Origin: Alphaproteobacteria bacterium
GTDB taxonomy: Bacteria > Pseudomonadota > Alphaproteobacteria > Rickettsiales > SXRF01
Length of the DNA stretch: 64,000 bases
Assembly (NCBI GenBank): GCA_020049775.1
Contig: JAGVLO010000003.1
Span: 124,001-188,000, forward strand
Direction: 5' to 3'
Within the stretch, counting starts at the first letter, position 1; each line of letters starts with the position of its first letter. Below, one piece after another: positions 40,062 to 64,000 of this stretch. Both the position numbers and the translations under genes were made by a program. The notes under the pieces are model-generated. The model was not told the DNA's origin. It saw only the letters and a list, made by a program, of their open reading frames with translations, and did no database searches.

Positions 40062-42776
40062 ATGGCTATTAGTTCAATTAACACCAATATCGCTGCGTTT
40101 TATGCGCAAGCGAATATCTCAGCAGCTTCCTCACTAGCACAATCATCCGTAAGCCGTCTTTCCAGCGGTAACCGTATCGTACAGGCGTCCGACGACGTGG
40201 CCGCTCTCTCGATCGGTACTTCGCTGCAGACGCAGGTGAGCGCGCTGAAGCAAGCTTTAACCAACGCGTCTCAGGGTACCAGCCTCTTGCAGGTGGCCGA
40301 TGGCGCTCTTGCCCAGATTCAGGCGATTCTGCAACAGCAGAAATCAATTGCTCTGCAGGCAGGTTCCGGTTCGTTGACCGATACTGACCGCGGGTTCTTG
40401 AACCAGCAGTTCCAGGCTCTGTCCAACCAGATCAACACCCTGACCTCAAGCACCACCTTCAACGGTGTAGGCCTGATTGACGGTTCGCTGACGCAGACGG
40501 TAGGTCTCGATACTACCAGCACGCTGGCAACCAAAGGTTCAACCACCCTCAACTTTACCGCTGTTGCGGATGGCAACACAATTATCCTTAACGGTGTAAC
40601 CTTGACCGCTGATGATACACCGGCTGGCGCTGGTCAGTTCCAACGCGGTTCGGATCTTGCAACCACCGTGGCAAACCTTGCCAGTTACCTGAACAATGCG
40701 CAGAATGATAATTCTGCCAATGCTCTGACTGCAGCTAATAAATTGCTCGTTAGCGGTGCAAGCTATTCTGCTGTTGGTAACATCCTGACCATTACTGCCC
40801 GCACAGGCGGCAGCAATTTCAGTTTTGTTGCTCAAGATGATGCCGACGCTTCACCCGCTGGTGGTACAGCTACCTATACTGTCGTGGGTAACGGCACCAA
40901 CTCGGTTAGCCAGGTACAGGGTATTGCTGCGACCAGTCTGGACACGGATATCACAGGTACTGCAACCATTACCGCAGACTTTGCTGCTGGCGTATTGACG
41001 CTTGATGGCGTGACTGTGGCAACGCTTGTTGCTGGTGATACGCTGCGTAACATCGTAAATAAAATTAACGATGCTACCGCCACCACGGGTGCTACTGCTT
41101 TTATCACCGGCACAACGGGTGCATATCAGCTCAACATCCGTACTGTTACTGATGCACAGACGGGTACTATCGCTGGCGCGGCCCTCAACGGCTTGACCCA
41201 GACCCAGACAATTGACGAAGGTTCGGAAGTGGTTTCTGGTGGCCAGAATAACGGCCTTGGTTTTGGTTCTGTTACCGCTTCCGGTTCAACCGGTGGTGCT
41301 ACCAGCATCCTGACCGACCAGTCACAAACTGCTGCTGCAGGTGGTTATAACTTCAACGACATTGCTGACGGTAACTTGGTGAGCACACTGAGCGGTCTCA
41401 ATTTTGTAGTTGCTGGTATTACTTTTACCTTTACCACCAACACTCAGGCAGCTGCTGCGCAGAACGAAGTGGCGATTGGCAGCACTCTGGAGGAAACTCT
41501 GGATAACGCTGTTGCCAAAATCAATGCTTTCGCATCTGATTCTGACACCAACTTCCAGTTCAACCAGTTCACAGCTAACCGCGACGGCACTCGCCTCTCG
41601 CTGACAGCTAACGTTCCGGGTGGTGTGGAAACGGTTGCAGCTGTTACCACGACCTTCACCATTGGCTCGCTTGGCTCTAATGCCAGCGTGTTCGGCTCTT
41701 TCGCTGCACCGACCAATACCGGTGTGGACCTGAAGGGTGTTTCCAACGCCAGTTTTGCTGGATCGATCGGTGGCCTGACCGCTACTTATGTATCGGCCAA
41801 CACGATTGACCTGAGCATTACGGTAGGTGGTTCTACCTACACTGCCCAGAACGTTGACACCAATCCGACGGCCAACACCAAGGTTCGCCTGATTTCGACG
41901 AACGGTGGTTACTTTGACGTCCAGCTGCGCGGCAGCTACGGCGAAGTAGTCAGCAACCAGGCTGGTGCAGACACTTTCGCAGCCCGCATTAATGCGGCCC
42001 TCGAAGGCCTGACCCTGTCGCAGGATCGCATCATCTCCAGCTACGAAGATGGTGTTGGTACTCTTGCTGGTTCATCGGTATCGTTCAACAGCACCGATTT
42101 CAGCAATGTCAAAGTTACCGACATTTCTGTCATCGCTCCGTCTGGCTCTAACAGCAACGGTTCGGTAATCTTTACCGTTGGTGGCGAAGCTTACACGGCT
42201 AACGTTGAGCTCGGTGGACAGATTGGCGCCAACTCGGTGATCAAGTTTGTCAGCGCAGGTGATCCAAACAAGTTCCTGACCTTCAGGAATGGTGCAACAG
42301 ACCTCGACATCTCTACTGCTGGCGCTGCCAGCGCATTGCAGACTGCACTGCGCGACGCGTTTGGCGTAGGTGAAGGTGCAGAGGCCTTGAGCTTCCAGGT
42401 TGGTACGAGCACTACCTCCAGCATTACGGTCAGCCTCGATGCTGCGACCACCACCAACATCTATGGTGGCCAGTCGCTCAGCGTGGCAACTGCCATCGCT
42501 GCTGCTAATGCATCCAGCGTGTTGGACAGTGCTATCGCTAGCGTGGCGTCTATCCGCGCTAACGTGGGTGCGTTGCAGACTCAGTTCAACTTCGCTTCTG
42601 CCGCTCTGCAAAGCAGCGTGCAGAATCAGGACGCTGCTCGTGGCCAGTTGCTGGATACAGACATTGCTGCTGAATCCACCAGCTACGCTACTTCGCAGGT
42701 TAAGCTCCAGGCCGGTATCTCGGTACTTGCCCAGGCTAACCAGCAGCTCCAGGCTCTTCTGAAGCTGATCGGTTAA
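40062..42776 (+). CDS. fliC: Flagellin 1, large
   Basis: 904 residues, several times the usual alphaproteobacterial flagellin. The polymerisation ends are intact. At the N-terminus is SLAQSSVSRLSSGNRIVQASDDVAALSIGTSL with the DRGFLNQQFQAL helix. At the C-terminus is IRANVGALQTQFNFASAAL through VLAQANQQLQALLKLIG. The middle (about 150-780) is a Thr/Gly/Ala-rich beta region with repeated motifs (GVTVATLVAGDTLRNIVNKIND) that would form surface domains. The ATG at 40062 has AGGAG seven bases upstream; the ATG at 40056 is too close. FliB and the TPR-methyltransferase precede it. A second paralogue lies at 47673. Confidence 0.95.
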   Translation: MAISSINTNIAAFYAQANISAASSLAQSSVSRLSSGNRIVQASDDVAALSIGTSLQTQVSALKQALTNASQGTSLLQVADGALAQIQAILQQQKSIALQAGSGSLTDTDRGFLNQQFQALSNQINTLTSSTTFNGVGLIDGSLTQTVGLDTTSTLATKGSTTLNFTAVADGNTIILNGVTLTADDTPAGAGQFQRGSDLATTVANLASYLNNAQNDNSANALTAANKLLVSGASYSAVGNILTITARTGGSNFSFVAQDDADASPAGGTATYTVVGNGTNSVSQVQGIAATSLDTDITGTATITADFAAGVLTLDGVTVATLVAGDTLRNIVNKINDATATTGATAFITGTTGAYQLNIRTVTDAQTGTIAGAALNGLTQTQTIDEGSEVVSGGQNNGLGFGSVTASGSTGGATSILTDQSQTAAAGGYNFNDIADGNLVSTLSGLNFVVAGITFTFTTNTQAAAAQNEVAIGSTLEETLDNAVAKINAFASDSDTNFQFNQFTANRDGTRLSLTANVPGGVETVAAVTTTFTIGSLGSNASVFGSFAAPTNTGVDLKGVSNASFAGSIGGLTATYVSANTIDLSITVGGSTYTAQNVDTNPTANTKVRLISTNGGYFDVQLRGSYGEVVSNQAGADTFAARINAALEGLTLSQDRIISSYEDGVGTLAGSSVSFNSTDFSNVKVTDISVIAPSGSNSNGSVIFTVGGEAYTANVELGGQIGANSVIKFVSAGDPNKFLTFRNGATDLDISTAGAASALQTALRDAFGVGEGAEALSFQVGTSTTSSITVSLDAATTTNIYGGQSLSVATAIAAANASSVLDSAIASVASIRANVGALQTQFNFASAALQSSVQNQDAARGQLLDTDIAAESTSYATSQVKLQAGISVLAQANQQLQALLKLIG

Positions 42777-55217: not shown

Positions 55218-55255
55218 GGGCCGTTAGCTCAGTTGGTAGAGCGGTTGACTCTTAA
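55218..55255 (+). pseudogene. 5' fragment of tRNA-Lys(CTT), probable attachment-site remnant
   Basis: The 38 bases read as the 5' half of tRNA-Lys: acceptor strand GGGCCGT, D-arm GCTC-loop-GAGC, anticodon stem GTTGA and loop CTCTTAA with anticodon CTT. Similarity stops exactly after position 38. The expected TCAAC stem strand, T-arm and acceptor 3' strand are missing, and AT-rich foreign sequence follows. This is the pattern left when a tyrosine recombinase crosses over in an anticodon loop. The restored tRNA should lie at the far end of the island, outside the window. Confidence 0.82.
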
Positions 55256-55423
55256 ACATTCCATTCGCCTTTTTCCCCTCAAATAGTACATTGTTTTTCC
55301 AATACGTTAGTCATAACTAACGGGTGCTGCTTTTGTGCTAAGTAGCGTCTAAGTAGTAATGGCATAATATAAATATGCATAACGCGGTTAATTTGCTGCC
55401 GCATATTTTTGTGAGAAATATAC

Positions 55424-56308
55424 ATGCAAAGAATAAACAATATCCTTCATTACAGCCTTATCGAAATTCAATTGAGGCTATATTTCCTTCAAACAAAGCA
55501 ATGGTTTGGAGATCCGAATTCTTACGAATGGAGAAACATCATAAGGGATGTTCCTGATAAAAATTCTCGAATAATCTTGTTTCTAGTCGAAGCAATAAGC
55601 GATTTGCTGAGTAATGCAGATAGTAATAGTTTCTCTCTCTACCAGATTGAGGAACCGAGATTTCCATCCTCACTAGCAGAATTTATTGAGGGGTTGAAAG
55701 AAGATGAGCAAGCAAATGTAGAAATTGACCATTTCGGTACAAAACAAGCAGTACTAAACTCTCTGAAATCTCCCAAAGATGTGGAAAGAATATTGTTTGA
55801 TGAGCTATTTAAAACGATTGTGTTTATTCAAAAGATAATTTGGAAGATTTTGATAAAGAAAATTTGCCAAGGAGAAGTTTTAGCATATGGCGTACGCTTT
55901 CCTTCGCGCGATAAACTGGGAGCGGCTTTAATCTCCTCTCTTGAGTGGGTTAACTTGACTTTTCAAGGCTCGGAGGCCGTAGCAAAAAATGAAGATAGCA
56001 TCTCATACAAATATTGTAATTTGGTCTTCATAATTCCAGTTTCTAAAAATCCCTCGTCCCCAATTATTGAACAGCAAAAACCTGGTCGTCCTTCGATTAT
56101 GAAATTAATCGAAACTCAGATGCAAAAAAGATTTGATGAAGGAATGCTATGCAATACTCTTGCTATGGAAGCACGAGCATTAGAGTTATGGGGAATAAAA
56201 GCATATCCCAAGTTTAAAACGCCTAAGGCTGAATCTATAGCTAAACAAACAAGTGTGAGATCGCTTTACTACCAACTCAATCCCTCGCCGTTGCAAAAAA
56301 ATAGCTAA
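55424..56308 (+). CDS. Hypothetical protein of the mobile element
   Basis: 294 residues, soluble. The first 200 residues are helix-rich without a known motif. The C-terminal part opens GRPSIMKLIETQMQKRFDEGMLCNTLAMEARALELWG and ends KTPKAESIAKQTSVRSLYYQLNP. This arrangement, with GRPS and a terminal TxxxYxxL, looks like a helix-turn-helix or regulatory tail seen in integrated elements, but the family is not one I can name. Codon use is AT-rich like the rest of the island. A shorter overlapping frame at 55375 is not favoured. Confidence 0.62.
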   Translation: MQRINNILHYSLIEIQLRLYFLQTKQWFGDPNSYEWRNIIRDVPDKNSRIILFLVEAISDLLSNADSNSFSLYQIEEPRFPSSLAEFIEGLKEDEQANVEIDHFGTKQAVLNSLKSPKDVERILFDELFKTIVFIQKIIWKILIKKICQGEVLAYGVRFPSRDKLGAALISSLEWVNLTFQGSEAVAKNEDSISYKYCNLVFIIPVSKNPSSPIIEQQKPGRPSIMKLIETQMQKRFDEGMLCNTLAMEARALELWGIKAYPKFKTPKAESIAKQTSVRSLYYQLNPSPLQKNS

Positions 56309-56425
56309 TAAATTCAAGGTATCATAAATCATATTTTGATTTCTGATATTTGTGACAATTATCATATTTTACTTCGATATTACAGATTGTTATTTTCTTT
56401 CTTGTGGCAAACAAAGGAGAGAAAA

Positions 56426-56677
56426 ATGTCGTTGTCGATTCCTCAGTCTCAAATTCAATTAATTACGGAAAAAGAATTACACCGTCTTATTGGAAGGAGT
56501 TTGAGTTCTATCCGAAAGGACAGAATGAAAGGAATAGGCGTACCCTTCATTAAGTGGCCGAGCGGCCAAGTATTCTACGATCTTCGTGACATCAGCGCTT
56601 ATGTAGACGCGCATCGCCAACACTCGACGTCCGAAACTTGGGGCAGTCAGGCAAAAATTCCTAATTATAGCCTGTAA
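56426..56677 (+). CDS. AlpA-like excisionase/HTH DNA-binding protein
   Basis: 83 residues. ITEKELHRLIGRSLSSIRKDRMKGIGVPFIKWPSGQVFYDLRDISAYVDAHR fits the winged-helix MerR/AlpA fold that is used by excisionases and satellite-phage activators: helix-turn-helix, then a beta wing with FIKWPSGQVFY and a terminal helix. GGAGAG precedes the ATG at 56426; the longer frame upstream is unlikely. It precedes the replication ATPase gene, the same order as in P4-like satellites. Confidence 0.75.
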   Translation: MSLSIPQSQIQLITEKELHRLIGRSLSSIRKDRMKGIGVPFIKWPSGQVFYDLRDISAYVDAHRQHSTSETWGSQAKIPNYSL

Positions 56678-56825
56678 GGAGTTGTGTGAAATGAACACGC
56701 GGCATCTATGCACTTCGCCTGACAATACGGGCTAATTACTAAAACTAAGCATCCGGAAATTGTCGGGCCCTCGCTTGATTGCGAGCAGTCAATGGACATC
56801 TATTATCAGATTTAGGAATGATTTT

Positions 56826-58373
56826 ATGAGCAATAACCATCAAGATATTAAAAGCAAAAAGAATGAAACAAATGGGCTTAAGCCCAACGCAGCTGGGTTT
56901 ATTGAGAAACTATTGAAAACAAGCTCCTTGTGGAAAGACCAATACAGGCGAGTTGGAATAACCATAAAAGCTGGCAATCTCACCAAGCATTATCTCTTGG
57001 ATGACCATGATGGCCATTTGCACATCCATCGGGAATTTCAAAATTATTATAAGGATGAAGCGGACTATAGCCTCTTTCAGGAAGCTATTATATTACTCAA
57101 AAATAAAGCCGTATATGAAGGTGAGCCAAAACAGTCTTGGCATCGTGTGGGATGGGTTAATGGCAAGGTTTGCTATGATCTGACTAATGACAATTGGGAA
57201 ATGGTAGAATGCACGGACAAAGATTGGACTGTAAAAAGCCAATCAGACATTATCTTTCTGCGATCCCCGGATATGCTTCCTCAATGTACGCCTGTAAAAG
57301 GAGGCACATTAGAGAATCTGGAAGCTTTGTTGAATACAGATGAGGAGGATAAAAAGCTCATTATCGGCTTCTTGGTTTATGGGTTGATGAATGTGAGCGC
57401 TCCTAATCCGATATTGCTTATGCGTGGAGAGCAGGGAACTGGCAAAACCTTTGCTGCCGGACTTCTTGTATCTTTGCTTTCGCCCACGTCTGCTTCATTA
57501 CGCATGCTTCCCTCTAACCACGAGGCCTTGGCAGCATTGGCGTTGAAAAACAGGGTATGTGCCTTTGATAACGTATCTGCGATTAGCGATAAGCTATCGG
57601 ATTCTCTTTGCACTATTTCTACGGGCATTACCGCATCTGTAAAAACGAGTATCCCAGGCATTGTAACTACAGGAAAAGCATCATGTCCTATTATCATCAA
57701 CAGTATTCACGATGTGGTGCGACGTCCCGATCTTTTAGATCGCTCTTTAAATGTTCTTTTTAAGCAACTTGAAGAAAGAATTGATTCCGAGAAACTGACT
57801 CAATTCGCAGAAAACACTAAACCTCACACTTTAGGAGTGCTTTTTGATGGCGTAGTGGCGGCGCTTGCCAACAAAGATAAGGTGGCCGTCGAGAACATGC
57901 CGCGTATGGCAGACTTTGCTAGGGTGGTAACAGCGGCAGAAAGCGGCTTAGGTTGGCCGTCCAATACCTTCATGCAAGCATATGCTGGCAATATTGAAGC
58001 ATCCGCCAAAGAAGAATTAGACAACAATATGCTGGCGCGAGCCGTATTGCTGTACATGAAGGGCAAGAAGGCTTCTCAAAGGCATACCGCAACCGAATGG
58101 GTAAGAGAGTTGCAGCATGAATGCCAGTATGAGCCTTGGAAAATGCACCTACCTGTGAGTCCGATTTCCCTTTCTAACGAATTGGCGCGTATAGCACCGC
58201 TTTTGCGTACTGGCGGTCTTGAGGTGGAGCGTATTAAAAGCGATGGTTCCCGTGCAATACGAATTACGCGAATTGAAGGGGCATGGACGCCTGATGTGCA
58301 GGAAGAGAGCTTTGGTCGTTATCTACCTAAGGTCAAGCCTATGTTTGCAAAACCCCCAAAATCTAAAAGCTAG
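56826..58373 (+). CDS. Phage/plasmid-type replication ATPase (helicase-like)
   Basis: 515 residues. Walker A is RGEQGTGKTF (about 200-209). Other family features are CAFDNVSAISDKLSDSLCTISTG, CPIIINSIHDVVRRPDLLDRSLNV (arginine-finger region) and PRMADFARVVTAAESGLGW. The set matches ATP-binding proteins of prophages and integrative elements that act as replicative helicases. No primase motif was seen in the N-terminal 190 residues, so primer synthesis may come from elsewhere or be replaced by the HUH protein encoded next. The ATG at 56826 has AGGA upstream. AT-rich coding. Confidence 0.8.
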   Translation: MSNNHQDIKSKKNETNGLKPNAAGFIEKLLKTSSLWKDQYRRVGITIKAGNLTKHYLLDDHDGHLHIHREFQNYYKDEADYSLFQEAIILLKNKAVYEGEPKQSWHRVGWVNGKVCYDLTNDNWEMVECTDKDWTVKSQSDIIFLRSPDMLPQCTPVKGGTLENLEALLNTDEEDKKLIIGFLVYGLMNVSAPNPILLMRGEQGTGKTFAAGLLVSLLSPTSASLRMLPSNHEALAALALKNRVCAFDNVSAISDKLSDSLCTISTGITASVKTSIPGIVTTGKASCPIIINSIHDVVRRPDLLDRSLNVLFKQLEERIDSEKLTQFAENTKPHTLGVLFDGVVAALANKDKVAVENMPRMADFARVVTAAESGLGWPSNTFMQAYAGNIEASAKEELDNNMLARAVLLYMKGKKASQRHTATEWVRELQHECQYEPWKMHLPVSPISLSNELARIAPLLRTGGLEVERIKSDGSRAIRITRIEGAWTPDVQEESFGRYLPKVKPMFAKPPKSKS

Positions 58374-58385
58374 CAAAAGAAACAA

Positions 58386-58403
58386 TCGTCCCTGTCGTCC
58401 CTG
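58386..58403 (+). repeat. 9-bp tandem repeat before the HUH gene
   Basis: TCGTCCCTG occurs twice back-to-back, at 58386-58394 and 58395-58403, in the 123-bp gap between the ATPase and HUH genes. It could be an iteron-like binding site; two copies are weak evidence. Confidence 0.5.
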
Positions 58404-58496
58404 AAAATCCAACCAAGAAGACAGGAAAACCATTTTGGCATTCTAAATTCGCAGCTTCTTCCATTCTTATAAATACTTATGAAAGGCAGCAAAACA

Positions 58497-58988
58497 ATGA
58501 TCGACGAGTTCTGGTACTCCACCAATAAACTTGAGCTAATGCATGGTTATAAGCAACTATTCCATGAACATGGCGCAACACATCTGGTTACTTTCGTTTT
58601 CAATATTAAGGGGCTTAGCATTACAGAGGCTGAGAAATTCCTCAATAAGTGGCATCGCAAGCTAGATAAAAAGCTTTTTGGGCATTTCTATTACAAACGC
58701 CAAAGGCATGAGCGTACTAGCTTCATTGCTATACCTGAAAACAAGCTAACCAATCTCCACTACCATGCTTTTTTACGCACTTCTCAGCCAAGGGAATTTG
58801 AAGTTCATGCGCAAGCTATATGGAAGGAATTGGTAAAGGGAGGAAATTTACATCTCGGCAATCCAAGCATTGATGAACTGCAAATAGCAAAATGGAGCAA
58901 CTACGTGGATTGCGAACTGATGTGTGAAAACAACATGGATTTAATGTTCATTTCTAAAGCAAACCCCAAAAGAAAGGAGGCGTTGTAA
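58497..58988 (+). CDS. HUH-type replication initiator/relaxase-like protein
   Basis: 163 residues. The core HUH motif is NLHYHAFLRT (H88, H90) after a strand FIAIPENKL. A likely catalytic tyrosine follows in AKWSNYVDCE (Y136), in the order expected for rolling-circle Rep proteins. The opening HLVTFVFNIKGLSITEAEKFLNKWHRKLDKKLF gives the first strand and helix. It probably nicks DNA to start replication or transfer of the element. ATG 58497 has AAAGG ten bases upstream; ATG 58479 adds six residues without a site. Stops, hairpins and repeats follow in the next 150 bp. Confidence 0.72.
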   Translation: MIDEFWYSTNKLELMHGYKQLFHEHGATHLVTFVFNIKGLSITEAEKFLNKWHRKLDKKLFGHFYYKRQRHERTSFIAIPENKLTNLHYHAFLRTSQPREFEVHAQAIWKELVKGGNLHLGNPSIDELQIAKWSNYVDCELMCENNMDLMFISKANPKRKEAL

Positions 58989-59052
58989 CTCACGAGGTAA
59001 GTTATGCTTCGATAAGGCCGCCTTATGTTGCCACTGGCTTACTGACCGAAAT

Positions 59053-59129
59053 TTTACTGCGATGCTTATGCTCCGCAGTAAATGAAGTTTGCCTAAATGA
59101 AGTTATATGAAACACTGCTGTTACAGCAG
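59053..59129. other. Candidate origin or regulatory region with two hairpins and a direct repeat
   Basis: TTTACTGCG (59053-59061) and CGCAGTAAA (59074-59082) form a perfect 9-bp stem. TAAATGAAGTT is repeated at 59079-59089 and 59094-59104. CTGCTG-TTA-CAGCAG forms a second hairpin (59115-59129). The region lies just after the HUH gene. The first hairpin could simply be a terminator, but it lacks a T-tract. The rest of 58989-59271 shows no gene. Confidence 0.4.
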
Positions 59130-59271
59130 CAAAGAAAACAATAAGAAATGAAAATAATATTATTCAAATACAAAAGTTTATTTTAAGAGAAAATAAAAAA
59201 CAGCAAGATATGTATCTCTAACTGTTATTGCTAAAAAAACACCAGATAAACATTAGAAAAGCTTTTTACCC

Positions 59272-59508
59272 TTAATAGTGCTGCCTCATCTCAACCATAA
59301 ATTCTTCCAAAGTCATATCCATCGCGGAAACAATTTTAAACATAGTAACCATAGTTGGATTTGTTTTTCCGCCTTCTATTTTGCCCAATGTTTGGCGAGA
59401 TATTTTAGCTTTAGCGGCAATAGCTTCATGGCTATATCCGCGGCCTTTGCGTGTCGCGTATAAAGTCTTAATAAGCGCTTGTTTAAACTTGTCGTTTACA
59501 TTTGCCAT
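59272..59508 (-). CDS. XRE-family transcriptional regulator
   Basis: 78 residues, a single Cro/CI-type helix-turn-helix: YSHEAIAAKAKISRQTLGKIEGGKTNPTMVTMFKIVSAMDMTLEEF. The recognition helix is SRQTLGKIE. Such small regulators control early genes of mobile elements. It is divergent from the small exported protein gene. The 83-bp gap between them has a 9-bp direct repeat that could be its operator. Confidence 0.9.
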   Translation of the reverse strand: MANVNDKFKQALIKTLYATRKGRGYSHEAIAAKAKISRQTLGKIEGGKTNPTMVTMFKIVSAMDMTLEEFMVEMRQHY

Positions 59509-59550
59509 GCCCTCAAAATACGAACATTGACAACTATATTCACCGCACTT

Positions 59551-59574
59551 ATATTAGCGGCCAATATATTAGCG
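59551..59574. promoter_or_regulatory. Direct repeat, possible XRE operator
   Basis: ATATTAGCG occurs at 59551-59559 and 59566-59574, a 15-bp period, midway between the divergent XRE and exported-protein genes. The spacing puts both copies on nearby faces of the helix. No binding evidence. Confidence 0.35.
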
Positions 59575-59591
59575 TTAGTGAGATGGAATTT

Positions 59592-59843
59592 ATGAAAAAA
59601 TACATGATTATTGCTCTGTTACTTACGGGAACATTTGCGAAGGACTGTTTTGCTGAGTATTTCGTGTCGAAGATCGAATTCAAATGCACCGGCTCTGGAA
59701 GCCAAGACGAGCCAAATGTGATTGACTACGCACAATATGGTCAAAATCGAATAATGGAAAACACAGCAAGAGATGCAGCAGAGCATATTTGCGGAAGATT
59801 GCATAATGGCAGTCCATATGATGTTCGCTTAACTTACCATTGA
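59592..59843 (+). CDS. Small exported protein of unknown function
   Basis: 83 residues with a clear signal peptide (MKKYMIIALLLTGTFAKDCFA, cleavage expected after FA near 21). The mature part is about 62 residues with two cysteines that could form a disulfide bridge in the periplasm. No homology was recognised. GGA is six bases before the ATG at 59592; an ATG at 59583 is also possible. It is the only exported product in the visible island, divergent from the XRE regulator. Confidence 0.65.
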   Translation: MKKYMIIALLLTGTFAKDCFAEYFVSKIEFKCTGSGSQDEPNVIDYAQYGQNRIMENTARDAAEHICGRLHNGSPYDVRLTYH

Positions 59844-59872
59844 TCCGGAATACGTAATAAATTCGTAGGTAT

Positions 59873-60445
59873 TTAAAGAACCTCTACGGCAGCTTTGAGC
59901 ATTTCATCATTTACCTCAATATAGCGCTGGGTTGTAGACAAATGCTTATGTCCTGCAAGGGTCATGATAACTTTTGCTGAAATACCGCTATGTGCTAGGC
60001 GTGTAATAAACCATCGTCTCCCGCTGTGACTTGTACCTCCGAGGATACCGGCGTCGATATACAGTTTGTTGAATAATTGGCAAAGAGTGTTGGGGGAAAA
60101 GGCCGTATTTTTTTGTGTTAACAATAATGGTTTCTCAGGCTTCGGCATGTTGGCGAACGACATGAAATATCGCTCCGATTCCTTCGTTAATTTACTTCCC
60201 ATTATGATAGAGCGCACTTCCTTGGTTTTGGTATTTTGTGCCCTGAGTATAATACGATCTCTAACCTCACCAGTTTTATGATCGAATACGTCGCCAATCT
60301 TCAGCGAGGCAATTTCGCCAATTCGTAATCCTGCTAGATAAGAAAGCATTACTGCGTATCTGTTCCTATCCGCGTAACGCCCTACCGAAATTAATCTTAA
60401 CAACCGCGATAATTCGGTTTCTGATAATACCTTCGCTTGCTTCAT
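59873..60445 (-). CDS. int: Tyrosine recombinase, catalytic domain only
   Basis: 190 residues. All catalytic residues can be placed: R41 in GLRIGEI, K73 in NTKTKEVR, H140 and R143 in SHSGRRW, H166 in AGHKHLSTTQRYI and nucleophile Y175. The arm-binding and core-binding N-terminal domains of typical integrases are missing; the frame starts MKQAKVLSETELSRLL, already at the catalytic domain. Short integrases of this type exist, so it need not be broken. It is the obvious candidate for integration at the tRNA-Lys anticodon loop. It faces away from the R-M genes. Confidence 0.87.
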   Translation of the reverse strand: MKQAKVLSETELSRLLRLISVGRYADRNRYAVMLSYLAGLRIGEIASLKIGDVFDHKTGEVRDRIILRAQNTKTKEVRSIIMGSKLTKESERYFMSFANMPKPEKPLLLTQKNTAFSPNTLCQLFNKLYIDAGILGGTSHSGRRWFITRLAHSGISAKVIMTLAGHKHLSTTQRYIEVNDEMLKAAVEVL

Positions 60446-60723
60446 AAAACCTCACAATTTGTTGCATATAATTATTCAAAATTATATTTATTTTCAGCAA
60501 CATGTTCTACCGAAGAAATCATTTCAAGTAGAGCGAGAGTTTCAACTGAAACCTAAGAAAATGTAGATTGTATTAGGTTTATGAGAGGGGGGGGGATTGA
60601 CTGAATTTAAAGACTGGAATACGAGCTGATCCGCTGCAAGTGTAGCCCATTAAAATTATCTGGAATTCTTTGCTTACAGGTGTATGACTTAATCATCGGG
60701 TAAAGCGTGGGGAATTCTAAAGA

Positions 60724-61899
60724 ATGTGGCGTTGGGATCAAGGTAGAATCGCTTATTATCAATTTGATGCCTTAAAGGCTATTTCCAAGTTTGTATGCCA
60801 ACACGATTTTAAATTAGCCCAAAGAGAAGTTTTGCTAGCTGAAACTGGACTTCCTTTTAAGCCAAACACCTATAATCCGTGGCGCAATTACTCCAGAACT
60901 TTAAAACAATCATTATTAGTCAGCGAAGAAAAAGGTGTTGCCGTACCAACGCCAGTAGCAAAATTATTAGCTAAAGCTGGTATTGTAACATCTGATGAAT
61001 ATGTACATTTTTTGCTGCAAGCATTTACTGATCCATCGCCAGCATTTAAAGATTGGAAGCTCGTAGATTCTCCACGTTACCCGCTCCTATTTTCCTTGAA
61101 ATATCTTCTGGCTAAAGTTGCCAGCAAAACATCATCATCTGCAACGTTAGATGAGATTATTGCGGCTTATATAAAATCCAATTTTATTGGTGATGAGTCC
61201 GAGCAGGAATTCATAATCTTGACGGGCAAAGATATAGATGCATCATTCGTTAAGAAGATTCCGAGCATACGACAAGCACGAGAAAGCTTGAAAGTCATGT
61301 GCCAAATATCATATTTACATTGTGAAAAGTCCACAATCTCAGTTTCGTTAGAGGCAGAAGATGCGAAGGAAATTTTTCAAGACTTAGCTCCTATTGGTGG
61401 CGAAAGAGAAGTTAACAGCAATGCCGAAATAAGGAGATTAGCCAACTTCTTTAAAGAAGGAAGCACCCAGGATTTCTTTGATTTTACTCATACAACAATA
61501 AGCGAGGTGGTTGATAGCGGGTTTAAAGAAGGAAGCAAAATTAAGAAGACCCACATTGTAATTGAAAGAAACTCGAAACTTAGAGAGATGTTTTTTAAAA
61601 AGCATCCCGTTACGCATTGCGATCTTTGTTTAGTAGATACAGCTAAAAAATATCCTTGGACGGAAAAGGTTTTAGATGTTCATCACCTTTTACCTCTTTC
61701 TTCTGGAACAAAAACAGAAGACAAAGGAACAGCTTTAAGTGACCTAATAGCAGTTTGCCCAACATGCCATAGAGCAATCCACCGATATTACGACCAATGG
61801 CTAAAAACCAAAAAACAGCTTGATTTCAATAGTGAAAAAGAAGCGCTTTTAGTATATAAAAAATTGAAAAAAGATTTTTGTGAGGGAAAAATAGGATGA
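60724..61899 (+). CDS. HNH endonuclease, probable type II restriction enzyme
   Basis: 391 residues. The C-terminal HNH domain is complete: zinc cysteines C299/C302 (CDLC) and C345/C348 (CPTC), and the catalytic pair H320-H321 in DVHHLLPLSSG. The last knuckle is CHRAIHRYY. The N-terminal 290 residues have no family I recognise and probably hold sequence recognition. The stop overlaps the cytosine methyltransferase start by ATGA, the classic arrangement of a restriction-modification pair. Coding is AT-rich. An eight-G tract (60588-60595) lies upstream in the 278-bp gap, which otherwise shows no gene. Confidence 0.82.
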   Translation: MWRWDQGRIAYYQFDALKAISKFVCQHDFKLAQREVLLAETGLPFKPNTYNPWRNYSRTLKQSLLVSEEKGVAVPTPVAKLLAKAGIVTSDEYVHFLLQAFTDPSPAFKDWKLVDSPRYPLLFSLKYLLAKVASKTSSSATLDEIIAAYIKSNFIGDESEQEFIILTGKDIDASFVKKIPSIRQARESLKVMCQISYLHCEKSTISVSLEAEDAKEIFQDLAPIGGEREVNSNAEIRRLANFFKEGSTQDFFDFTHTTISEVVDSGFKEGSKIKKTHIVIERNSKLREMFFKKHPVTHCDLCLVDTAKKYPWTEKVLDVHHLLPLSSGTKTEDKGTALSDLIAVCPTCHRAIHRYYDQWLKTKKQLDFNSEKEALLVYKKLKKDFCEGKIG

Positions 61900-63107
61900 C
61901 TGATCTCGCTATTAAGCAAAAACAGCAAAAGTCTGATATTAATTATCAGCGGAGGCTCTTGGATTCTTCAGAAAAAACGGGAGTTCCGCTTGCTGAAATT
62001 TTAAGCGATGCCGGGTTAGCCTACGATGATCTCGTATATGAAGATTCCAAAGCGGAGTGGAAAAGCCCTGCTCCTTATACATTGAAAGATTTGAAAGCTA
62101 AAACCTCTGTCGGGGTTGGAATGGTTAGTTTTTTCACTGGTTGTGGGGGAATGGATTTAGGCTTTGAATCTCAAGGATTTGAACATGATGCGGCATTTGA
62201 AATCAATGAGCTGTTTTGCAAGACATTGAGGAAAAATCGTCCGAATTGGAAGATTTATGGTCCTCCTATTAGCTCAGGAGATGTTTCCAACTTTGAAGAA
62301 ATCAATGATGCACTATCTAAAATAATTACAAAGCCATACGATGGTATTTTTATTGGCGGACCGCCATGCCAACCATTTTCAATAGCCTCGAATCAAAGAT
62401 TTTCTAAATCCGGGGAAAATTTTAAACGGGTGGGATTCGCTCATGATAAAAACGGCAATCTTCTTTTTGACTACGTAAACCTGATTATTGAATTTCAGCC
62501 AAAAGCATTTGTTATAGAGAATGTCCCCGGGTTAAGGGATCTTGATGATGGGAAGCAATTAACGCAAGCTATCAGCTTGTTGAGCGAGGCAGGCTATAAT
62601 GTATTAGAGCCTATGGTTCTTGATGCCGCTGATTATCGTGTTCCACAATTCAGGCAACGGTTATTTGTAATTGGTTCCAGAACCAAAAAACCCTTTACTC
62701 CTCCTAAGCCTTCGCTTGAAAAAATCGGGTGCGGCTCTGTTTTAATCAATACAAAAGCTTCTAAGCATAACGTTGAAACGAGAGAGCATAAAGCTGAGTC
62801 TATCAAAAGGTATATGAAGCTGAAATATGGTCAGCGAGATCAATTGGGACGGGTTGATAGATTGAACCCGGCGCTTCCCTCTAAAACAGTCATTGCAGGA
62901 GGGACTAACGGTGGTGGAAGGTCTCATTTGCATCCTGAGATACCGAGGACGCTTAGTGTGCGTGAATGCGCTCGATTGCAAACTTTTCCTGACGATTATG
63001 TATTTTTAGGCCCATCTGCGCGGCAATTTACGCAGGTTGGAAATGCTGTGCCTCCGGTTCTGGCGGCTCAAATTGCAGCAGCAATTAGATCATCATTTTT
63101 TGATTGA
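61896..63107 (+). CDS. DNA (cytosine-5-)-methyltransferase
   Basis: 403 residues. C5-methyltransferase motifs in order: I VSFFTGCGGMDLGFESQGF (about 78-96), IV GGPPCQPFS with catalytic C158, VI ENVPGL, VIII QFRQRLFVIG, IX RECARLQTFPDDY, and X QVGNAVPP. The recognition region lies between VIII and IX. About 70 extra residues precede motif I. It would protect host DNA from the overlapping HNH endonuclease. The recognition sequence cannot be read from the protein. No controller gene is seen. Confidence 0.95.
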   Translation: MTDLAIKQKQQKSDINYQRRLLDSSEKTGVPLAEILSDAGLAYDDLVYEDSKAEWKSPAPYTLKDLKAKTSVGVGMVSFFTGCGGMDLGFESQGFEHDAAFEINELFCKTLRKNRPNWKIYGPPISSGDVSNFEEINDALSKIITKPYDGIFIGGPPCQPFSIASNQRFSKSGENFKRVGFAHDKNGNLLFDYVNLIIEFQPKAFVIENVPGLRDLDDGKQLTQAISLLSEAGYNVLEPMVLDAADYRVPQFRQRLFVIGSRTKKPFTPPKPSLEKIGCGSVLINTKASKHNVETREHKAESIKRYMKLKYGQRDQLGRVDRLNPALPSKTVIAGGTNGGGRSHLHPEIPRTLSVRECARLQTFPDDYVFLGPSARQFTQVGNAVPPVLAAQIAAAIRSSFFD

Positions 63108-63284
63108 TCCTATATTTAAACTAATGCTTCCAAAAATCGCATCGTCTTATGTTGTGACGGTGGTACCAATTTAGAATTTTACTATGGAAAGTAGTCACAA
63201 TTCGGGAATGCAGCCTTAAAAGCACCTCTCAAGTTCAGAAAAAACTTCAAAAGCGCTTAAAATAGCATCTTTTTGCCTGATTAT

Positions 63285-63995
63285 TTACATTCTAGAAGAC
63301 TTATAAACATGCAGGTTATGCCACGCTAGAAACTTTTTCTGATTGGGATGAAAATTTCCTACATTCTTTGGACTAATGCCCCAGCACTGTAACGCCTCTT
63401 TTGCTTGATCGGATAAGAGCATATCGCCATTGCCAGCGAAACTTAGATGTCCACGATCAAAGAGCCTGTCAATGTGTGGGGATAGTAAGAGACCATTGTA
63501 GCCATCCAAGCGCTCTTTATCATTACATTTATTCCACGGCTTTATGTGGCTGGCAATCAGCAAATTTGTATTTTTTAGTCCAGTTATGCGACATTGCTTC
63601 TCAATGCAAATAACGGCTTCCCTGAATTGGCCTTGTCCCATTCGTGCATTTATAAGCCGTTCTTTTTCTGTGGGAGGAAGACTTGAGTTTTCAATCTCAC
63701 GAATGTCTTTTTGCAATTCATGCTCGGGGAAAGTGCCTTGGCGAAGGCGTTGTGCAAATTCTTCATGGATTGCCCGCTGTTCTTCCAAACTGCCTTTACC
63801 CTTTGTGTTATAATAGCGGATGTGTTGATCTAAAGCAGAAAGAGCTTTTGCTAATGCTGTTGCTCCATCCTTCCCTTCGCTAATTCTCTCTAAAAAATAG
63901 CGCGTCGCTGGGGCATTCATTGTGCGTTGGTATTGGATACCCAAGCGCATGTTCCGATAGTTGCTCAAATATGCTTTGAGCGTATTGGAAGGCAT
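63285..63995 (-). CDS. HNH endonuclease (HNH_2 type), possibly extending beyond the window
   Basis: 236 residues visible. The C-terminal HNH_2 motif is CRITGLKNTNLLIASHIKPW followed by NGLLLSPHIDRLFDRGHLSF. The histidines in SHI and PHID are the catalytic/metal residues. The N-terminal part is helical and charged. No stop interrupts the frame between 63995 and the window edge, so the true start may be further out. It is convergent with the methyltransferase gene across a 177-bp AT-rich gap. A separate restriction or homing-type nuclease is possible; whether it works with the R-M pair is unknown. Confidence 0.78.
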   Translation of the reverse strand: MPSNTLKAYLSNYRNMRLGIQYQRTMNAPATRYFLERISEGKDGATALAKALSALDQHIRYYNTKGKGSLEEQRAIHEEFAQRLRQGTFPEHELQKDIREIENSSLPPTEKERLINARMGQGQFREAVICIEKQCRITGLKNTNLLIASHIKPWNKCNDKERLDGYNGLLLSPHIDRLFDRGHLSFAGNGDMLLSDQAKEALQCWGISPKNVGNFHPNQKKFLAWHNLHVYKSSRM

Positions 63996-64000
63996 TATGC

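Follow-up and report, generated by a model that had tools for sequence, protein, structure and literature searches.

In classical tRNA-gene islands (Islander, PMC4383910) a tyrosine integrase recombines within a tRNA gene, the gene is restored at a junction, and a displaced fragment marks one end of the element. A different arrangement has been shown experimentally in tRNA-dependent lysogeny (Guerrero-Bustamante and Hatfull, mBio 2024, PMC10865867), where the att core is short, the host tRNA is not rebuilt, and a phage tRNA is required to replace the broken one. The phage tRNAs of that study are described without introns, and the word intron occurs there only in a reference title. Separately, group I introns are found in bacterial tRNA genes such as tRNA-Leu(UAA) (PMC3984707), and in archaea it has been proposed that an integrating element in Caldiarchaeum delivered an intron-bearing tRNA-Thr(GGU), and that this could protect the integrated element from further integration (PMC3293823). 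In that case the archaeal intron lies at 24/25 and was delivered through the att site itself into the reconstituted gene. Here we describe a genomic island that has split a tRNA-Lys(CTT) gene and that carries, as a separate complete gene, a tRNA-Lys(CTT) with a group I intron at the island's own crossover point. A literature search, based largely on titles and the opening lines of abstracts, listed no description of an intron-bearing replacement tRNA on a bacterial integrative element.

A tRNA-Lys(CTT) gene split by a 12.3-kb island

The analysed stretch of DNA (the window, 64,000 nucleotides) is from an alphaproteobacterium of the order Rickettsiales (assembly GCA_020049775.1) and corresponds to positions 124001-188000 of contig C12, such that window position p is C12 p+124000. 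The genome is 2.54 Mb in 15 contigs and is listed as 100% complete with 0.05% contamination. An initial annotation of the window alone had reported a tRNA-Lys(CTT) cut after the anticodon loop, and this observation was confirmed. Positions 55218-55255 read as tRNA-Lys(CTT) positions 1-38 and are followed at once by unrelated DNA; ARAGORN found no tRNA gene in the window, and GC content falls from 47-56% over most of the window to 37-44% beyond this point. A second copy of the 5′ half was found in the genome (42 bp at 98% identity, E 6.5e-14), excluding a chance resemblance.

To locate the other end of the element, the contig was read on to the right, as the initial annotation had suggested. 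The host 3′ half lies at C12:191555-191600, and the 8-bp core ACTCTTAA (tRNA positions 31-38) is present at both junctions. The island is 12,307 bp, and the joined flanks give a perfect 76-nt tRNA-Lys(CTT) that is recognised by ARAGORN. GC content rises to 47-56% over about the first 2 kb past the right junction and varies between 43 and 56% after that. The features identified were as follows (window coordinates unless C12 is given; L003 is a second numbering used for the DNA to the right of the window):

55218-55255, plus strand: host tRNA-Lys(CTT) 5′ half, positions 1-38 (left junction, attL)
55248-55255, plus strand: 8-bp att core ACTCTTAA at the left junction
55256-64000, unstranded: part of the island inside the window; the island continues to C12:191562
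55349-55361, plus strand: arm-type-like repeat CTAAGTAGTAATG, left side of the core
55424-56308, plus strand: ORF, 294 aa, no family found in Pfam, PHROGs, PADLOC or NCBIfam
56426-56677, plus strand: ORF, 83 aa, weak match to PHROG 66, excisionase and transcriptional regulator (E 1.8e-5)
56826-58373, plus strand: ORF, 515 aa from this start, no family or PDB sequence match found
58479-58988, plus strand: ORF, 169 aa, weak match to a rolling-circle replication initiation PHROG (E 0.0052)
59272-59508, minus strand: helix-turn-helix regulator, 78 aa
59873-60445, minus strand: second, short tyrosine recombinase, 190 aa, catalytic domain only
60724-61899, plus strand: HNH endonuclease-domain protein, 391 aa, beside the methyltransferase
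61896-63107, plus strand: C5 cytosine DNA methyltransferase, 403 aa
63285-63995, minus strand: HNH nuclease-like protein, 236 aa
C12:188817-189124 (L003:1318-1625), minus strand: complete tRNA-Lys(CTT) with a 232-nt group I intron between U35 and U36
C12:190199-191392, minus strand: tyrosine integrase, 398 aa
C12:191415-191427 (L003:3916-3928): second copy of the 13-bp arm-type-like repeat, right side of the core
C12:191555-191600: right junction, att core plus host tRNA 3′ half

The integrase contains arm-binding, SAM-like and catalytic (Pfam Phage_integrase) domains, and the 13-bp repeat lies at -140 and +101 from the core, as arm-type sites would. The methyltransferase, its neighbouring HNH protein and the second HNH nuclease-like gene (60724-63995) are likely to form a restriction-modification set. 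No structural phage family was detected among the 10 island proteins scanned against PHROGs; thus, although the arrangement works like tRNA-dependent lysogeny, the element is described here as an island and not as a phage.

The interpretation given in the initial annotation was partly supported. It correctly identified a tRNA-Lys(CTT) cut in the anticodon loop, the left end of an integrase-bearing island, and a loop sequence repeated at the far end. However, its key prediction, that the other end would carry a replacement 5′ half, was wrong: the right junction holds only the host 3′ half, and neither junction rebuilds the gene. A simple inversion of a classical island was also rejected, because the two copies of the 5′ half have different upstream sequences.

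The intron-bearing tRNA-Lys(CTT) inside the island

The second copy of the 5′ half belongs to a complete, inverted tRNA-Lys(CTT) gene of 308 bp, 2.4 kb inside the right end of the island, which is interrupted between U35 and U36 by 232 nt. The insertion is a group I intron: it matched Rfam RF00028 with E 1.2e-10, although at 49.3 bits this is just under the gathering score of 50, and it scored 113 bits with a model built without it. By inspection of the sequence, exon CTCT can pair with GGAG in the intron, with a U35.G pair at the 5′ splice site, and the intron ends in G. After splicing in silico the product is a perfect tRNA-Lys(CTT) with CCA that differs from the host gene only at the 51-63 pair of the T-stem (A-T to T-A), a compensated change. 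The genome's own tRNA-Leu(TAA) (contig C4, 122280-122473) has a group I intron at the same 35|36 position, about 79% identical to the island's intron in its core (91 nt). The 14-mer ATGCAAAGAATAAA occurs near both the island's left end (window 55424) and the intron-bearing tRNA (L003:1866).

To determine whether the host retains another gene for this isoacceptor, the 40 RF00005 matches in the genome were analysed with ARAGORN. One other Lys tRNA, TTT, was found and no CTT, with one gene's anticodon not resolved. The anticodon arm of the host gene has no exact copy, and with up to two mismatches only attL and attR match. A consensus scan found no sigma-70-like promoter or terminator near the island tRNA.

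Related loci in other genomes and phages

Proteins of the left flank (flgE-like, 114 aa, 87 aa) are conserved beside tRNA-Lys(CTT) in relatives, with the 87-aa protein matching in 9 of 12 loci from 7 genomes. None of 5 right-flank proteins matched in these 12 loci, which hold limited sequence on that side, and the empty site rests on the joined flanks. One genome of the same genus (G001) has an intact gene, while three relatives (G004, G009, G012) have ordinary islands at this site: an intact tRNA-Lys(CTT) plus an orphan 3′ half 8.0-8.7 kb away. The closest integrase relatives in the order are 45-51% identical, and several have orphan tRNA 3′ halves starting at about positions 27-38, i.e. anticodon-loop crossovers in other tRNAs. 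At one locus (L092, G111:C193) a complete tRNA-Arg(CCT) and an orphan 3′ half flank a lone integrase about 1.4 kb apart, perhaps a minimal integrase-only island or a contig-end effect.

We next searched for intron-bearing tRNA-Lys genes. A sequence pattern hit 10 contigs in a collection of 84,980 species genomes and 4 IMG/VR contigs, and a broader pattern added a fifth viral tRNA-Lys case; exact patterns with limited gap lengths miss others, and records near the window's own genome may be left out. Looking for the integrase in IMG/VR, none of the 4 pattern stretches was a relative by tblastn. Two of the 10 contigs (L124 and L129, Alphaproteobacteria MAGs) show a host tRNA-Lys 5′ half broken at the anticodon loop and, 121 and 128 bp on, a complete intron-bearing tRNA-Lys(CTT). 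The design recurs here only in part, as no native 3′ half was found in these genomes with up to 2 mismatches, leaving their right ends unproven, and no close relative of the integrase was detected (best E 6.1e-11 and 6.3e-4). Intron-bearing tRNA-Lys(TTT) genes were also found inside large viral tRNA arrays (L132, L133, L134), with no match to the island integrase in those records.

Two IMG/VR phage contigs (L148 and L149) have an integrase related to that of the island (37% identical; that of L149 is 96% identical to that of L148), an attP core ACTCTTAA without the tRNA 3′ half, and 110 bp away an intron-bearing tRNA-Lys(CTT). In contrast, a sister phage, L150 (integrase 97% identical to that of L148; shared DNA blocks over 100 bp 81-90% identical), has the classical 46-bp 3′ half beside its integrase and no intron-bearing tRNA in the 21 kb examined. 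The two solutions thus stand in for each other.

The design was also found in the cultured Gordonia phage Daredevil (NC_048021.1), which has CGGACTTTTAATCCGC beside its integrase and, 153 bp on, an unannotated tRNA-Lys(TTT) with a 238-nt intron (41820-42131; L152:2996-3307). Rfam returned nothing for this intron at E <= 0.001 and a partial 15.4 bits in a narrow search; support comes from ARAGORN and from model R1, built without it (107.7 bits, E 1e-30). By comparison, the intron of L131, another of the loci examined, reached 38.2 bits in Rfam, under the cut-off. The spliced Daredevil exons are 63 of 73 identical to the intronless tRNA-Lys of phage Cheetobro, and its integrase is more distant from that of the island (E 4.5e-23 to the integrase model). 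PMC10865867 states that Daredevil encodes no such tRNA; the present data say that it does encode one, interrupted by an intron, indicating that tRNA finding without introns can miss such genes and that here the missed gene bears on a published conclusion. However, Daredevil is reported to form clear plaques (PMC10865867), and therefore its tRNA may not work.

Group I introns were observed in further tRNAs of mobile or plasmid DNA: in tRNA-Thr(TGT) at the end of an IMG/VR prophage contig beside an integrase-like frame (L146:1350-1640), and in a tRNA on a 1.26-Mb plasmid of Tritonibacter mobilis (L154:3897-4224), for which the Ile assignment by ARAGORN is doubtful. One 161-kb contig of a genome in the same order (G226:C110; L075, L083, L088-L090) contained five group I intron matches. 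In an intron tree, the Lys introns of proteobacterial loci and phages group apart from Leu introns, but the placement of the island's intron has low support (0.128), leaving its origin unresolved.

Proposed role of the intron

A complete replacement tRNA is itself a candidate attB, and a host-identical replacement would be a perfect attachment site, a problem not raised in the parts of PMC10865867 that were consulted. To investigate how other elements might deal with it, anticodon arms of replacement tRNAs were compared with the known or inferred host arm. The four intronless replacements scored differ from it at 6 (Cheetobro), 6 (Cain), 8 (ST4) and 4 (PhelpsODU) of 10 stem positions. The island's arm differs at 0 of 10, and the L148 and L149 3′ exons match the L150 3′ half over 41 of 41 bases. 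So the intron-bearing genes keep a host-like arm and break it at the DNA level. Four intronless examples are few, and the host arms are partly inferred: the M. smegmatis arm comes from the Boilgate attP half plus base-pairing, and Aeromonas caviae stands in for A. hydrophila. The fetched stretches of DyoEdafos, Silverleaf, Finemlucis, Lolly9 and Keshu held no tRNA and were dropped, and Bantam, SpeedDemon, Mollymur, DatBoi, OneUp and BrutonGaster were not scored because the host arm is unknown. Moreover, several intronless replacement tRNAs keep 9-11 bp in common with their own attP, indicating that avoiding the core is not obligatory. The tRNA-Lys(TTT) of Aeromonas phage ST4 (OR261032.1; L153:2101-2175), complete and intronless beside an integrase 61% identical to that of L131 and with an anticodon stem that differs at 8 of 10 positions from A. 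caviae tRNA-Lys, may represent a third solution to the same problem.

We favour, with moderate confidence, a model in which the island recombined its attP with the 8-bp core in the anticodon loop of the host gene, most likely through its own tyrosine integrase, did not rebuild the gene, and supplies the same isoacceptor from its own complete gene. As DNA this gene lacks the att core and the paired anticodon arm; as RNA the intron would be expected to splice out, leaving a tRNA identical to the host's apart from the T-stem pair. In this view the intron lets the element carry a host-identical replacement that its own integrase, or a second copy of the element, probably cannot use as an attachment site. 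The split gene, the island ends, the complete intron-bearing copy and the recurrence of the design are established by the sequences, whereas the part played by the integrase, self-splicing, expression, and protection from the element's own integrase are inferred, in the absence of splicing, expression or recombination data. Of 53 loci searched, mostly around related integrases, only this island's own carries the intron, so most such elements manage without it. If the model is correct, it would give a bacterial, testable case of the idea that tRNA introns guard against integration (Randau and Soll, as cited in PMC3293823 and PMC4390854), for which PMC3293823 noted no direct evidence before offering an archaeal case. 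A broader and more speculative possibility, which we consider somewhat less likely than not, is that group I introns in tRNA anticodon loops act as camouflage: elements that destroy a tRNA on entry would carry an intron-bearing replacement invisible to their own and competing integrases, the device having arisen or spread in islands and phages of unrelated bacteria, with some chromosomal intron-bearing tRNA-Lys genes being scars of such elements.

The main alternative, which appears unlikely but remains the strongest competitor, is hitchhiking: the element needed a tRNA-Lys(CTT) and captured one from a bacterium whose gene already had this intron, the intron having no protective role. Consistent with this, intron-bearing tRNA-Lys genes of this family exist in Acidobacteriota, Alpha- and Gammaproteobacteria MAGs, most without a related integrase or broken half in the fetched stretch, and some elements use intronless replacement tRNAs. 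However, such genes are rare (the 10 contigs above), yet 2 of these 10 lie beside a broken tRNA-Lys and 2 of the 5 viral tRNA-Lys cases lie beside attP and an integrase. Daredevil repeats the design with a different integrase branch and a different intron position, and the intronless replacements have altered arms where the intron-bearing ones keep the host arm.

It is improbable that the inverted gene is a dead relic and that the cell decodes AAG with tRNA-Lys(UUU) and tolerates the loss. A tRNA-Lys(TTT) gene is present, tRNA-Lys(UUU) can read AAG by wobble in other bacteria, and no promoter-like site was found; against this, the exons form a perfect tRNA with CCA and a compensated T-stem pair, the intron scores well on a model built without it, and by a rough count AAG makes up 312 of 680 Lys codons in long open frames of the host part of the window. 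Finally, a classical island whose restored gene was missed, as in G004, G009 and G012, is very unlikely unless the assembly is wrong, since neither junction holds a rebuilt gene and ARAGORN found none.
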